A DNA stretch of 34,638 nt, taken from the IMG/VR virus record IMGVR_UViG_3300006919_000193, positions 1-34,638 of that record; one strand, written 5' to 3'. The stretch is from a virus. Positions 2,884 through 10,987 of the stretch are shown one piece after another. The position numbers and the translations under genes were made by a program. The notes under the pieces are model-generated. The model had not been told where the DNA came from. It was given only the letters and a program-made list of their open reading frames with translations, and searched no databases. Position 1 is the first letter of the stretch. Every line of letters starts with the position of its first letter.

Positions 2884-3414
2884 TTATGATTTTTTTTGTT
2901 TGTAAGTTTCCACAATAGTTCCCCAGTTTTTTCGTCGATCGGATTGATTCATATCTTTCCAAGCGTCTTTTTCTAAAGCCATTTTTGTGGAAGTGCTTTC
3001 TTGTGTTGCAACTGGCTTTACATTATTTAAATCAACAAATTTTTGTAATTTAGTTAATGAAAGATCCTCTGCAATCACTTTTTGATCATCTGATAAACTC
3101 TCTAAAAGATTCGACCTAAATTCTTTTTGAAAACTATCAAACTCATCAGCTTTTGCCTTATATGTATCTCTTTCCTGAGAAAGGCTCTCTGAAAGCTCCT
3201 TGTATTTTTCTTGTTCTACAAGTTTTGCTTCATCAGTAGCTTTTATAGTTGCCCTAAGATCGTTAAGTTCTTCACGAAGTTTCGCTTTTTCTTGACGATG
3301 TTTTTTGGCTTCATATACAAGTTGCCCAATGTTGTCTGATGATGATGTTTCTTGAGTCGGCTCTGACTCTTTTTCTGTGACCATATTCTGGTCGAGTGTA
3401 TTGTCTTGTGACAT
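2884..3414 (-). CDS. Capsid scaffolding protein
   Basis: 176 residues, highly charged. It has a disordered acidic Gln/Ser/Thr N-terminus (1-30), then a long predicted coiled coil (about 35-105, rich in K, E and L heptads such as KLREELNDLRATIKAT), and a basic C-terminus (KDMNQSDRRKNW, ending KQKKS). This is the usual build of phage scaffold (GP20/DUF4355-like) proteins. It lies immediately before the major capsid gene. It would guide procapsid assembly and then leave; no protease domain is visible here, so the scaffold may exit intact or be cut by another enzyme. Confidence 0.8.
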   Translation of the reverse strand: MSQDNTLDQNMVTEKESEPTQETSSSDNIGQLVYEAKKHRQEKAKLREELNDLRATIKATDEAKLVEQEKYKELSESLSQERDTYKAKADEFDSFQKEFRSNLLESLSDDQKVIAEDLSLTKLQKFVDLNNVKPVATQESTSTKMALEKDAWKDMNQSDRRKNWGTIVETYKQKKS

Positions 3415-3424
3415 TTTAACCCCT

Positions 3425-3898: not shown

Positions 3899-4688
3899 TT
3901 TTCCTATCCTGGTAATACTCTTGTAGAGTTTTTATGTTTAAATTACGATTTTTTGATTTATACTTATCTTGTAAACCTTTAAATCGTTTTTTTGCTATAT
4001 CTTGCTCATTATCTTCAATATTACTAGCTATTTCCCAATACCCCCTACAATTAGGACCACCACGATCTAAAAAAGCTCCTGGGAAACTAGCCTCTATTTC
4101 TTTTTTTGTCATTTTTCCATAAGAAACCATTTTTATACATAAATGTCTAGTCTTATCATCCAATGGATTAACAAATAAATATTCTGTATCTTCTGGCATA
4201 CTATTTGACATAGTTTGTGTGACAAGATTAGCATAGTCTGCTATTTGAGTTTGAATAAAGGTTGTAACTGAACTAGTTCTTAAAAAATAGTTTCTTTCAA
4301 TTAATTCTTTTATTTGAGTAGCCGAAAAACCACTTGCTAACCCCCTAATTACTTCTAATTTTACCTTTTCCCCTAAAGACAAAGTATAATTAGCTATTAA
4401 TTGTTCGTGGGCAAAACGAAATGACTGTAATTGAAGTTCATTTACTGAACCATACAAAATTAAATCATCTAAGACTGAATCTATGCGGAACAAATATTGA
4501 TTAATAGCGTTAGTCATTAATAAGTCTTGCAACCAATAATCTGCAATAATAACTCCACCTAATACAGTCAAAGGATCCAACTGCTCTTCTTCTACTTGTT
4601 TAGATTGCTCTATAAAAGTATCAATAGCAGTGTCATAAGATTCTACAAACTCTTCTTGAGCTTGTGTAATAGTATCTTGTATTGGCAT
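3891..4688 (-). CDS. MuF-like minor head protein
   Basis: 265 residues. The C-terminal half has the Mu gpF signature: DDKTRHLC at 177-184 and GPNCRGYWEI at 211-220, with conserved Cys residues and an invariant-type P-N-C-R-G. The N-terminal 150 residues are helical and acidic. Such proteins sit on or inside the head, bind the portal, and help head assembly or are injected with DNA. The start overlaps the portal stop (TAATG), so the two are translationally coupled, and its end overlaps the next gene by eight bases. No extra C-terminal toxin domain is present. Confidence 0.85.
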   Translation of the reverse strand: MPIQDTITQAQEEFVESYDTAIDTFIEQSKQVEEEQLDPLTVLGGVIIADYWLQDLLMTNAINQYLFRIDSVLDDLILYGSVNELQLQSFRFAHEQLIANYTLSLGEKVKLEVIRGLASGFSATQIKELIERNYFLRTSSVTTFIQTQIADYANLVTQTMSNSMPEDTEYLFVNPLDDKTRHLCIKMVSYGKMTKKEIEASFPGAFLDRGGPNCRGYWEIASNIEDNEQDIAKKRFKGLQDKYKSKNRNLNIKTLQEYYQDRKNG

Positions 4689-6022
4689 TATGATTTCAGT
4701 CTATTAAGTAAAGGATTTTGTGGCTCTTGCTCTTCTACTTCATTGGCTTTTAGCAATTCCTCAATCTGATTATCACTCATATCTGGGTTATTATATTTGA
4801 ACCAATTTTGTTTATTATCTAAACCTTGGTCAAACTTCCAAGTCCAGTAATTCACTTCTTCTTGTGGATCTAAATACATCTTAGGTTCTACAAAATCAAC
4901 ACTATAGTCACTATTTAAACTAATGTTCTTTTGTACCTCAATAATTCTTTTATCTATTTCATATCTTTTCTTTTCAAATACTCTATATGTGTCTTCAGTC
5001 GTAGCAATACGCTCTTCCATATTTTCAATCTCTTGAATACGAAGCGCACTACCACTAGGTGCATTACCATGTGAGTCTGCCCATTTAATTCTCAAATGAT
5101 TATTGGACAGTGTTGCAGAAACATAGAATTTTATACCATCTATAATTTGACTAATAGAAGCGTTAGGTCCGGTAATACCGAAATTAGCCCCCTCCGGTAG
5201 ATATAACAATTTATCTACACCTAGTTCAATTCTACTGGCATCATCCACTCCTGTAACATAACGAATACCTATTGCACCAAATCGTAGACATAGTGCTAGT
5301 TCAGTCATTGCTATAGAAGTGTGCAAGTCTGCAGAAACAACATCCGCTGCATTCGCAGAATAGAATTGTCCACGAAGCGGGGGATAGCGATGGGTGTATA
5401 CTACTGGAACTATTCCATAAGGATTTAGATCTCCATCGTTGAATGATACTTTATTACCATCAATGATGCCAAAATGTCTACCCTGGTAACCAGGTCTATC
5501 TTCAGTCCATACAATCATCATATCTGACGATTCTTCTGCAGAATATCCATAACTAGGAACAAAATATGCTATTCCGAATGGTTTATCTTCATAAGGCAAG
5601 AACAATGGCTCGAAGTGTGTTAAATTTTCGTATTCTACTTTTTGTGTAGCTTCATCCCACCTTGATCTGAAAGCCATACAACCTAACAAATAGGTTAAAG
5701 ATTCTAATTGTCTTCTTTTTGCATTTAAGTCATGAATATTTACATACTCATCATAACGATCATCAACATTCATAACCGGCGGTCTTTTATAAGTCATAGA
5801 ACGAGCTTTAATAACTCTTCGTGTAAGATTTTGACTAAATACTGGAATCTGTGCTAATGTTTCAGTGCCAAAATAAGAACCAACATAGTCTTCTGTGTTT
5901 AATCCCTCATAAAAATCTAATAATTTATCAATCTCTTTATGTCTTTCAGTTTCTATATAACTAAACTGCTCTGAAAGAGCATTTATAATATTTTCTGTAG
6001 CTAAATCTTTCGTTATTACCAT
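4688..6022 (-). CDS. Portal protein
   Basis: 444 residues, within the usual range for SPP1 gp6-like portals. It would form the dodecameric ring at the unique vertex through which DNA is packaged and to which the tail is joined. The gene lies directly after the large terminase (overlap of seven bases) and before the MuF-like gene. Motifs typical of the family include a helical N-terminus (about 1-40), the central IPVVYTHRYPPLRGQFYSAN segment, and a long helical region with the helix-rich stretch NMEERIATTEDTYRVFEKKR. The ATG has an AGGA ribosome site ten bases upstream. Confidence 0.88.
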   Translation of the reverse strand: MVITKDLATENIINALSEQFSYIETERHKEIDKLLDFYEGLNTEDYVGSYFGTETLAQIPVFSQNLTRRVIKARSMTYKRPPVMNVDDRYDEYVNIHDLNAKRRQLESLTYLLGCMAFRSRWDEATQKVEYENLTHFEPLFLPYEDKPFGIAYFVPSYGYSAEESSDMMIVWTEDRPGYQGRHFGIIDGNKVSFNDGDLNPYGIVPVVYTHRYPPLRGQFYSANAADVVSADLHTSIAMTELALCLRFGAIGIRYVTGVDDASRIELGVDKLLYLPEGANFGITGPNASISQIIDGIKFYVSATLSNNHLRIKWADSHGNAPSGSALRIQEIENMEERIATTEDTYRVFEKKRYEIDKRIIEVQKNISLNSDYSVDFVEPKMYLDPQEEVNYWTWKFDQGLDNKQNWFKYNNPDMSDNQIEELLKANEVEEQEPQNPLLNRLKS

Positions 6023-8678: not shown

Positions 8679-9083
8679 ATGAGATTATTTAACAAACTGA
8701 AAGAGAGATTAAAAATGAGAAGTATCATATTTAAAATAATGCTAAGGTTTTGCCAAGTTGTATTTGTAATTGGTTTAGTTGTAATACCATTTATTATGCA
8801 ATTTAACCCGGAATTAAGAACCTTATTAAATGTATGGGTTCTATGTTTGTTTGGGTTCATTGGTGCTACTATGGGCTTTCAATGGGAAGAAGAAACCATT
8901 AAAGAAGATTACGATTATTTAACCATTAAATATAAAATATATAATGGGGAGATATTCAAATATAATGGGGAAGAGTATGAGGGCTTGGATTATGAACAAC
9001 TAATTAAAGATGTCCAAGAAGAATTGCAAACCCTTTCAACGCATTTCATTAAAGATGAGGAGGGGGAAGATGAGTTATACTAA
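8679..9083 (+). CDS. Membrane protein of unknown function
   Basis: 134 residues if the first ATG is used. A second ATG at 8715 (residue 13) has a weak purine-rich site and may be the true start. Two hydrophobic segments (about 19-41 and 48-68) suggest two membrane helices joined by a short loop. They are followed by an acidic C-terminal region of about 65 residues rich in Glu, Asp and Tyr, likely cytoplasmic. It opens the plus-strand accessory block, and there is no clear ribosome site at the first ATG. I do not recognise a family. Confidence 0.6.
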   Translation: MRLFNKLKERLKMRSIIFKIMLRFCQVVFVIGLVVIPFIMQFNPELRTLLNVWVLCLFGFIGATMGFQWEEETIKEDYDYLTIKYKIYNGEIFKYNGEEYEGLDYEQLIKDVQEELQTLSTHFIKDEEGEDELY

Positions 9084-9693
9084 TATTATGCAAGATGTTG
9101 CAACTAAATATGAAGAGGGCAAACATTTGACTTCTTGCTCTTGTCTTCATTATAAAGATGAAACCACTTGCAGTGATTGTGGCAGTATTAATGTTGAGTT
9201 TGATTATGAGGTTAAGTATGAAAGGGGAGGAAGTCACATAGAAGAATATTACTGCCTAGATTGTAAAAACACCGAAGAAATCAACTCTTATCAATCTTGT
9301 ATATATGGACTTGCAGAAATCATCACAAGACACCAAAAAAGGTTTGATTATACAAGGTCTGGGGGTAATGGTTTATATGCCGAAATGTGCTTTAAAAATG
9401 AACTTGAATTACAAAATGTTGTATTAGATAAAGCGCACGATTTAATAAAATTCCCAGTAATTTACAATCTGAATGAAGATGATATAAACGAACTCAAATC
9501 CAATGTTGTGTTTGTCTTTGATGAATGGGCTAGTAAGCAAAATAAATGCCCCTCAGATTGCGATAATATGGAATATATCGAAACCATAATAGGTGGAGAG
9601 TTGGAGCATTGGGGTTGTGGTGATTGTAAAAACTCTTTTAATGTTTCAATAAACATTGAAAGAGATTTTAAAAATAAGGAGGTAAGAAAATAA
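9070..9693 (+). CDS. Cys-rich zinc-ribbon-like protein
   Basis: 207 residues. I choose the ATG at 9070 (MSYTNIMQDV) because a GGAGGGGG site lies just upstream; a longer frame from 9010 would be entirely inside the preceding gene. It overlaps that gene by 14 bases. Several Cys pairs suggest metal ribbons: CSCLHYKDETTCSDCGS near 23-39, YYCLDCK, CPSDC and a C-terminal WGCGDCKNSF. The central part is mixed alpha/beta with no recognised enzyme motif. A strong AAGGAGG (9676-9682) sits just before its stop and may serve a following leader ORF. Function unknown; DNA, RNA or protein binding is plausible. Confidence 0.65.
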   Translation: MSYTNIMQDVATKYEEGKHLTSCSCLHYKDETTCSDCGSINVEFDYEVKYERGGSHIEEYYCLDCKNTEEINSYQSCIYGLAEIITRHQKRFDYTRSGGNGLYAEMCFKNELELQNVVLDKAHDLIKFPVIYNLNEDDINELKSNVVFVFDEWASKQNKCPSDCDNMEYIETIIGGELEHWGCGDCKNSFNVSINIERDFKNKEVRK

Positions 9694-9723
9694 ATGCGAA
9701 ATTGTCGCTTTTCTCGTCGATAA
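9694..9723 (+). CDS. Possible Arg-rich leader peptide (9 codons)
   Basis: ATG at 9694 directly after the stop of the Cys-rich gene (TAAATG), encoding MRNCRFSRR then TAA. AAGGAGG ends 11 bases before the ATG, somewhat far but usable. Four of nine residues are Arg, using CGA, CGC, CGT and CGA, which look unusual for AT-rich DNA. The ORF covers the 5' arm of the 15-bp stem of the adjacent structured RNA, so ribosome movement on it would open that stem. This is the layout of an attenuation leader, but it may be chance. Confidence 0.3.
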   Translation: MRNCRFSRR

Positions 9724-9800
9724 AATCAGATCGTTGGGAAAAGTGGCAATAACACCTATAAAGGCTATTCTGTCGGGTGTCTGATGAGCAGAGAATAGCC
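9701..9800 (+). ncRNA. Structured RNA with long stem and H-type pseudoknot
   Basis: Stem 1: 9701-9715 pairs with 9736-9750 over 15 positions with no mismatch, three of them G-U. An inner 4-bp helix (9718-9721 with 9730-9733) closes an eight-base loop. Directly after, ACACC (9752-9756) can pair with GGTGT (9776-9780), while GGCTATTCT (9763-9771) pairs perfectly with AGAATAGCC (9792-9800); the a-b-a'-b' order makes an H-type pseudoknot. A small GC-GAAA-GC tetraloop hairpin follows near 9829-9836, and then the AAGGAGG site of the gene at 9850. The region lies between two plus-strand genes and lacks other coding. It may be a cis-regulatory leader of the wHTH gene, a riboswitch-like element or a processed small RNA. 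I do not recognise a known class. Confidence 0.65.
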
Positions 9801-9849
9801 AAGATATTTGAAAATTAGATAACGACTGCGAAAGCAAAGGAGGTAGTTT

Positions 9850-10260
9850 ATGACTATCATTAGTAAGCTATGTTATAGGCTTAAAAAAAGCCCTATGACA
9901 TACAAACAAATGCAGAACTTCACTTATTACCAATCAAAGAAAGGGCAAGGGGTAGAGAACCCAAGGAAAGCCCCTAATGGGTGGTATACTACGAATTTGT
10001 GGAGTTTAAAGAATAAGGGCATAATATCGCAAAATAAAGAGGGGTTGTATTACTTAACTTTATTAGGCGATAAATATAAAAAAAACCCTTATGCGCTTAC
10101 CCTAGAAAGGTTAAAAATAAAATACGATAACCTTGATAGAACTTACCAAAAAATCTACTTGAGATTATGGGAAGTAAAGCGAGAGAATGAGAAACTAAAA
10201 GAACAAATAACCCGAGCCTCTAAGATCCTTAAAGGCTTGGATTATGAAAGGAGCATTTAA
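9850..10260 (+). CDS. Putative winged-helix DNA-binding protein with coiled coil
   Basis: 136 residues. The first 80 look like a winged helix (helical starts around MTYKQMQNF and WSLKNKGIISQ, then a beta-like GLYYLTLLGDKY hairpin). The C-terminal 50 residues (LERLKIKYDNLDRTYQKIY onward) form a coiled coil, probably for dimerisation. A strong AAGGAGG site is eight bases before the ATG, and the structured RNA lies directly upstream. It may regulate phage early genes; there is no recognised family name. Confidence 0.6.
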   Translation: MTIISKLCYRLKKSPMTYKQMQNFTYYQSKKGQGVENPRKAPNGWYTTNLWSLKNKGIISQNKEGLYYLTLLGDKYKKNPYALTLERLKIKYDNLDRTYQKIYLRLWEVKRENEKLKEQITRASKILKGLDYERSI

Positions 10261-10434
10261 ATGACTAGGAAACACTTCATAGAAGTTGCAAAAATTCTAG
10301 GCGAAAATACTAAAAGCAATAATGAAAATATCATGCTTGACTTTTTAGTATTTCTGAAAAAACAAAATCCAAATTTTGATAAATATCGATTTTTGGATTA
10401 TGTGCAAAATATCAGAGCCAAGAATATGGGCTAA
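10261..10434 (+). CDS. Small phage protein, unknown
   Basis: 57 residues (MTRKHFIEVAKILGENT, then DFLVFLKKQNPNFDKYRF and a short helical end). The start follows the previous stop directly (TAAATG), with AAGGAG at a good distance. The NPNFDKYRFLDYV segment resembles a common short protein of marine phages whose function is unknown. It is the last gene before a strong terminator. Confidence 0.65.
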   Translation: MTRKHFIEVAKILGENTKSNNENIMLDFLVFLKKQNPNFDKYRFLDYVQNIRAKNMG

Positions 10435-10458
10435 CACCCAAAGCAGATGAACCCAACG

Positions 10459-10496
10459 AAAGGGGGACAAATTTTTATTTGTTCCCCTTTTTTTTT
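10459..10496 (+). terminator. Strong intrinsic terminator
   Basis: A 14-bp stem (10459-10472 with 10477-10490, one G-U pair) with a TTTT loop, followed by nine T (10488-10496). It ends the first plus-strand gene group. The reverse direction lacks a long U-run, so it is chiefly a plus-strand terminator. Confidence 0.9.
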
Positions 10497-10758: not shown

Positions 10759-10987
10759 TATACTATATCACAAAAAAGGCTACAACCCCCCATAACCCCC
10801 ACCCCAGTATGTTTTTTACTGGTACTATTGGTACTAATAAGTGTTATTTATACCAATACTTACCATAACTGGAAACCGGGGGGGGATACCCCCCCTACCC
10901 CCCTGGGATCTAAATTTCTTGCACTTTGTAAAAGTATTGTTTACTTTTTAAGAGTAGAAAATTAATAACAAAATGAGGTGTTAAAAA
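10759..10987 (+). other. Intergenic region with inverted repeats and G/C runs
   Basis: 229 bases between the minus-strand small ORF and the second plus-strand group. It holds an 8-bp inverted repeat (TATTGGTA 10826-10833 with TACCAATA 10851-10858), which also carries a repeated GGTACTA. A G8-ATA-C7 hairpin lies at 10878-10895. A weak promoter-like pair (TTGCAC 10919-10924, TACTTT 10942-10947, 17-base spacer) could drive the second group, since the terminator at 10459-10496 blocks read-through. The inverted repeat may be an operator. Confidence 0.5.

Follow-up and report, generated by a model that had tools for sequence, protein, structure and literature searches.

A very probable type II hammerhead ribozyme between two co-directional genes of an uncultivated tailed phage

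Type II hammerhead ribozymes, in which loop I forms a pseudoknot with the 3′ tail, were described by Perreault et al. 2011 (PMC3088659), where cleavage became one to two orders of magnitude slower when the pseudoknot was disrupted, and recovered upon compensation. In the same work, hammerheads clustered around phage genes, cleavage of hammerhead arrays was observed both in vitro and in E. coli, and the suggested function was to process long phage transcripts (PMC3088659). Here we analyze an RNA element in a 34,638-nucleotide viral record (IMG/VR record IMGVR_UViG_3300006919_000193; the entire stretch is referred to as the window), which represents an uncultivated tailed phage with genes for terminase, capsid, tail, primase-helicase, methyltransferase and exonuclease. 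The RNA located between two genes of this phage is, with high probability, a cis-acting, self-cleaving type II hammerhead ribozyme, where cleavage is expected by analogy with the family. The preliminary description of this DNA considered the RNA to be undescribed; given that every element matches the type II hammerhead (RF02276; PMC3088659), it is a fresh example of a known ribozyme type and not an undescribed class of RNA.

The intergenic element and its identification

The element belongs to a short plus-strand operon that consists of ORFs 8679-9083 and 9010-9693, the ribozyme, ORFs 9850-10260 and 10261-10434, and a terminator-like hairpin (Table 1). Neither of the flanking genes (9010-9693 and 9850-10260) had a match in Pfam, PHROGs or NCBIfam, and searches of genomes, named phages and plasmids recovered no member of the downstream protein's family. 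The AlphaFold2 model of the downstream protein (mean pLDDT 81.9), with its winged-helix-like fold and C-terminal coiled coil, gave the best Foldseek matches to PadR-like and other winged-helix regulators, none at E ≤ 0.001, so that the DNA-binding role ascribed to this protein in the preliminary description is plausible only.

Table 1 Features of the operon and the predicted ribozyme (window coordinates).
Feature	Position	Strand	Evidence or remark
Upstream ORF, 227 aa	9010-9693	+	Stop codon 1 nt before ribozyme; homologues in L002-L005
Probable type II hammerhead ribozyme, whole motif with pseudoknot	9695-9800	+	Rfam RF02276, 19.9 bits, sub-threshold; descriptor scan; homologue covariation
Stem II 5′ strand, UGC	9695-9697	+	Pairs with GCA 9788-9790; open stem, as in type II
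Catalytic core G12 A13 A14 (GAA)	9698-9700	+	Identical in 6/6 sequences
Stem III hairpin	9701-9750	+	A15.1 = 9701 to U16.1 = 9750; folding, pairing kept in homologues
H17 = A	9751	+	Position following U16.1
Stem I 5′ strand, ACACCU	9752-9757	+	Pairs with 9775-9780; in L011 one C-G pair is U-A
Loop I pseudoknot strand, GGCUAUUCU	9763-9771	+	9-bp helix with 9792-9800; L002 and L011 vary with compensation
Stem I 3′ strand, GGGUGU	9775-9780	+	Pairing with 9752-9757; homologue comparison
Catalytic core CUGAUGA (C3 to A9)	9781-9787	+	Invariant in all homologues; matches CUGANGA
Stem II 3′ strand, GCA	9788-9790	+	Pairs with 9695-9697
3′ tail pseudoknot strand, AGAAUAGCC	9792-9800	+	Pairs with 9763-9771; folding and covariation
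Downstream ORF, 136 aa	9850-10260	+	Start 49 nt past ribozyme; winged-helix-like model, C-terminal coiled coil
Terminator-like hairpin, 15 bp and T tail, closes operon	10458-10491	+	Consensus match only

The structured RNA with a long, G-U-containing stem that was initially noticed in this gap is real: the predicted folding energy of the 157-nt gap (9694-9850) is −47.6 kcal/mol (z = −4.56), a value equaled by none of 200 shuffles. The stem consists of 16 uninterrupted pairs including G-U (9701-9716 with 9735-9750), not 15, followed by a 1×1 mismatch and 4 more base pairs. The H-type pseudoknot was also found as described, with ACACC (9752-9756) pairing with GGTGT (9776-9780) and, in DNA letters, GGCTATTCT (9763-9771) pairing over 9 bp with AGAATAGCC (9792-9800). 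Thus, the structure stood, whereas the labels did not: the 15-bp stem is stem III, the ACACC/GGTGT helix is stem I, and the “9-bp hairpin” is the pseudoknot. What had been missed were the conserved boxes CUGAUGA and GAAA that lie between the stems; the catalytic GAAA is the 5′ copy at 9698-9701, not the tetraloop to which attention had been drawn. A GC-GAAA-GC hairpin does exist near the ribosome site, at about 9827-9836; L011, the most distant homologue, lacks it, so it is probably incidental. An alternative hammerhead with the downstream GAAA (9830-9833) and a closed stem II (GCAG/CUGC) was rejected, by eye, because the required stem III does not pair, and a tRNA reading of the element found no support.

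All catalytic positions are present, in the correct order and with the correct spacing, in the Rfam alignment, the descriptor match and the folding alike. Three helices, backed by covariation, surround the core; the A15.1-U16.1 pair (A9701-U9750) is invariant; loops close stems I and III while stem II is open, which is the type II arrangement; and the pairing between loop I and the 3′ tail, typical of type II albeit not obligatory, extends over 9 bp.

At the gathering threshold, Rfam gave no match anywhere in the window. A permissive scan identified Hammerhead_II (RF02276) at 9694-9797, and a search of the whole phage record with this family alone yielded a single match (E = 0.0027). The default search misses the ribozyme because its score, 19.9 bits, falls below the cut-off of 37, as do those of its relatives (27.6-33.6 bits); this cut-off is a curation threshold, neither a structural nor a catalytic feature, and the structural features are all in place. 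As judged from the alignment, the AT-rich stems and the long stem III insert account for at least part of the low score. Because the cut-off loses type II hammerheads with a long stem III, their counts in viral metagenomes are probably too low.

In 400 simulated windows with the dinucleotide make-up of the real one, a descriptor that demanded the exact core and stems III, I and II of at least 5, 4 and 2 bp produced 0.0025 matches per window, and a stricter version (6, 5 and 2 bp) produced none, compared to 16, 6 and 3 bp and a 9-bp pseudoknot in the real element. Chance formation of hairpins in AT-rich DNA is contradicted by these simulations and the fold shuffles, and already refuted by the covariation reported below; its probability is negligible.

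The compact, stable fold in an intergenic gap is also what would be expected of a discrete phage small RNA that acts in trans on the host, as contemplated in the preliminary description. Neither promoter-like nor terminator-like sites flank the element, the nearest same-strand terminator-like hairpin being located past the downstream genes (Table 1), and a cis ribozyme already explains the parts, which makes a small RNA extremely improbable. The structured RNA does lie in cis beside a gene, as the preliminary description had it.

Conservation, covariation and rival readings

Relatives were sought in IMG/VR through the neighbouring proteins, not through the RNA, and three further distinct sequences were recovered, namely, L002, L003 (with an identical element in L004 and L005) and L011, so that the lineage sample consists of four distinct sequences including the window. 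Every core base is kept in all three relatives, and the Rfam score of L003 is 27.6 bits. The sequence of stem III is wholly different in L003 and L011, where it pairs outwards from A15.1-U16.1 for 10 and 15 bp, respectively, and across the lineage its length varies from 10 to 34 nt beyond the first 8 bp. L011 has U-A in place of C-G at pair 2 of stem I and compensated changes through most of the pseudoknot.

Covariation in the stems, the check proposed in the preliminary description, was assessed in an alignment of the four lineage sequences with hand-placed cores and loops removed (alignment A6). Of the 92 cells, 98.9% are paired, and 11 of the 23 pairs show two-sided changes; the covariation score was 0.667 compared to 0.281 ± 0.063 for shuffles, with 0 of 500 shuffles scoring as high. 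Because the cores were placed according to the hammerhead model, these counts lean towards the model, whereas control registers obtained by sliding (34-39% paired) show the excess over other registers. In this unbiased set, the two-sided changes include 6 pairs in stem III, 1 in stem I and 4 of the 6 counted pairs of the pseudoknot; the inner two G-C pairs of stem II, unchanged across six sequences, are silent in the covariation test. Invariance of the catalytic bases while stem III and the pseudoknot turn over is expected only under selection for catalysis. The RNA is real, conserved and almost certainly catalytic.

The position of the element is kept in all cases, with 0-14 nt separating it from the preceding stop codon and the next gene starting approximately 30-50 nt downstream. 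The stop codon in L011 precedes the stem II strand by about 7 nt; L003 has a different ORF upstream, of 49 aa, and its TAG ends at 4681, at the start of the ribozyme. Independent lineages keep the element close behind a stop codon and ahead of the next gene as the stems turn over, which points to selection for intercistronic cutting.

Pattern scans of IMG/VR with GGTRTCTGATGAGCAGA and GCGAAA..CTGATGAGCAGA yielded, among the matches listed, mostly chance or coding sequences, and only L065 and L178, two unrelated viral contigs, carried new hammerheads by the descriptor. Both have a type II hammerhead of matching architecture between co-directional ORFs, and adding them to the alignment raised the covariation counts; having been picked by a pairing descriptor, they are weaker evidence. 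The L065 element (10791-10889, minus strand; 28.8 bits, below the cut-off) has the same GCAGA tail as the window and a 5-bp pseudoknot, and follows the upstream ORF by about 14 nt. The L178 element (3302-3417, minus strand; 33.6 bits, likewise below the cut-off) begins at the upstream stop codon: the upstream ORF runs to 3416 and shares the initial one or two bases of the match. The gene after the L178 element ends in an HTH-like sequence and its L065 counterpart looks ParB-like (both by eye); neither had a Pfam match. The L178 region holds an ArdC-type anti-restriction gene; hammerheads adjoin another anti-restriction gene, ardA, in the data of Perreault et al. 2011 (PMC3088659).

H17 is A in the window and L002, and C in L003, L011, L065 and L178, in conformity with the rule that this position is H (not G). 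The triplet AUA is not the commonest at hammerhead cleavage sites. A once-active hammerhead could have become a plain structured intergenic element, protecting mRNA ends or serving as a leader, with cleavage lost or negligible. The A at H17, the score under the Rfam cut-off and the helix favoured by nested folding are compatible with such a loss: without the pseudoknot, a competing fold reaches −38.7 kcal/mol, compared to −24.5 kcal/mol for the ribozyme before the pseudoknot is added, by lengthening the 9763-9800 helix and trapping part of stem I and the CUGAUGA strand, and the pseudoknot duplex on its own is worth about −12 kcal/mol. The invariance of all catalytic bases across lineages with turned-over stem III and pseudoknot argues against loss of cleavage, which we regard as improbable.

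A riboswitch-like cis-regulator, i.e. a ligand sensor of the downstream gene that possibly gates ribozyme activity, would fit the location of the element ahead of a gene whose product plausibly has a DNA-binding fold, and a metabolite sensor had been among the initial proposals. However, once the hammerhead parts are assigned, no conserved domain remains that could serve as an aptamer with an expression platform; there was no Rfam riboswitch match; stem III varies freely in sequence and length; and cleavage does not expose the Shine-Dalgarno site in the folding model. A ligand sensor is improbable. Translational control, with stem I of the uncut RNA pairing to the Shine-Dalgarno site, was considered as well and rejected: cleavage does not relieve this pairing in the model, and it looks weaker in the relatives (by eye).

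Predicted cleavage and possible roles

Under the type II hammerhead reading, the co-directional genes 9010-9693 and 9850-10434 would be transcribed, and stems III and I would fold as hairpins. The GAAA strand and the CUGAUGA strand would be joined by the short open stem II (2-3 bp), and the pairing of loop I with the 3′ tail, a 9-bp pseudoknot, would keep stems I and II side by side. The 2′-OH of A9751 would then attack the next phosphate, cutting the RNA at 9751^9752, where both the chemistry and the site are predicted from the known family. Of the two products, the upstream mRNA would carry the 16-bp stem III hairpin and a 2′,3′-cyclic phosphate at its end, right behind the stop codon, and the downstream mRNA would start with a 5′-OH and a stem I/pseudoknot leader about 90 nt ahead of the Shine-Dalgarno site.

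By the precedent of Perreault et al., a cut of the transcript between ORFs 9010-9693 and 9850-10434 is the most likely outcome. Such a cut would probably serve to split one phage transcript into two messages of separate stability. What the analysis shows directly is the sequence, structure and covariation, and the conserved core and intergenic position. As a type II hammerhead in a phage, the element is a well-supported new case.

In a blastn comparison of the window with L003, homology stops at 9702, inside the GAAA strand, and restarts exactly at 9752, the first base past the predicted cut. The L003 segment that corresponds to window positions 9702-9752 (4539-4714) contains the extra 49-aa ORF followed by its own GAAA/stem III half of a different sequence. 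These sequences are most simply explained by exchange of the variable stem III half, or by gain or loss of the 49-aa gene together with a stem III half, while the constrained 3′ half stayed. Conceivably, albeit with low probability, the ribozyme is a modular joint, with halves swapped along with gene cassettes, perhaps through the cleaved RNA, in which case each new gene would bring its own cut site; the idea of exchange using cut RNA comes from one case, the window compared to L003. In the window, a Shine-Dalgarno site (aaggaggtaag) and an ATG at 9694 open a 9-codon frame (MRNCRFSRR) that overlaps the ribozyme (region 9675-9723). This frame is not conserved in L011 and looks like a relic because the 49-aa ORF of L003 starts from the equivalent site.

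Comparison with known self-cleaving RNAs

Theta ribozymes of gut phages (PMC10879173) are likewise self-cleaving RNAs in phage genomes; they have an HDV-like fold and are tied to tRNA-based recoding, whereas no tRNA was found in the window. Type I and type III hammerheads share the catalytic core with the phage element and differ from it in that the phage element has stem II open; layout scans detected neither of these arrangements in the window or in L011, L015, L019 and L021. The type II hammerhead (RF02276) shares with the phage element the order GAAA, stem III hairpin, UH, stem I hairpin, CUGAUGA, as well as an open stem II of 2-3 bp, a pseudoknot between loop I and the 3′ tail, and the location between co-directional phage genes. 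The phage element differs in its score under the Rfam cut-off and in its dimensions: stem III has 16 plus 4 bp in the phage compared to 6 in the Rfam model, the phage stems are AT-rich, and the phage pseudoknot comprises 9 bp compared to 6 in the example tested in PMC3088659.
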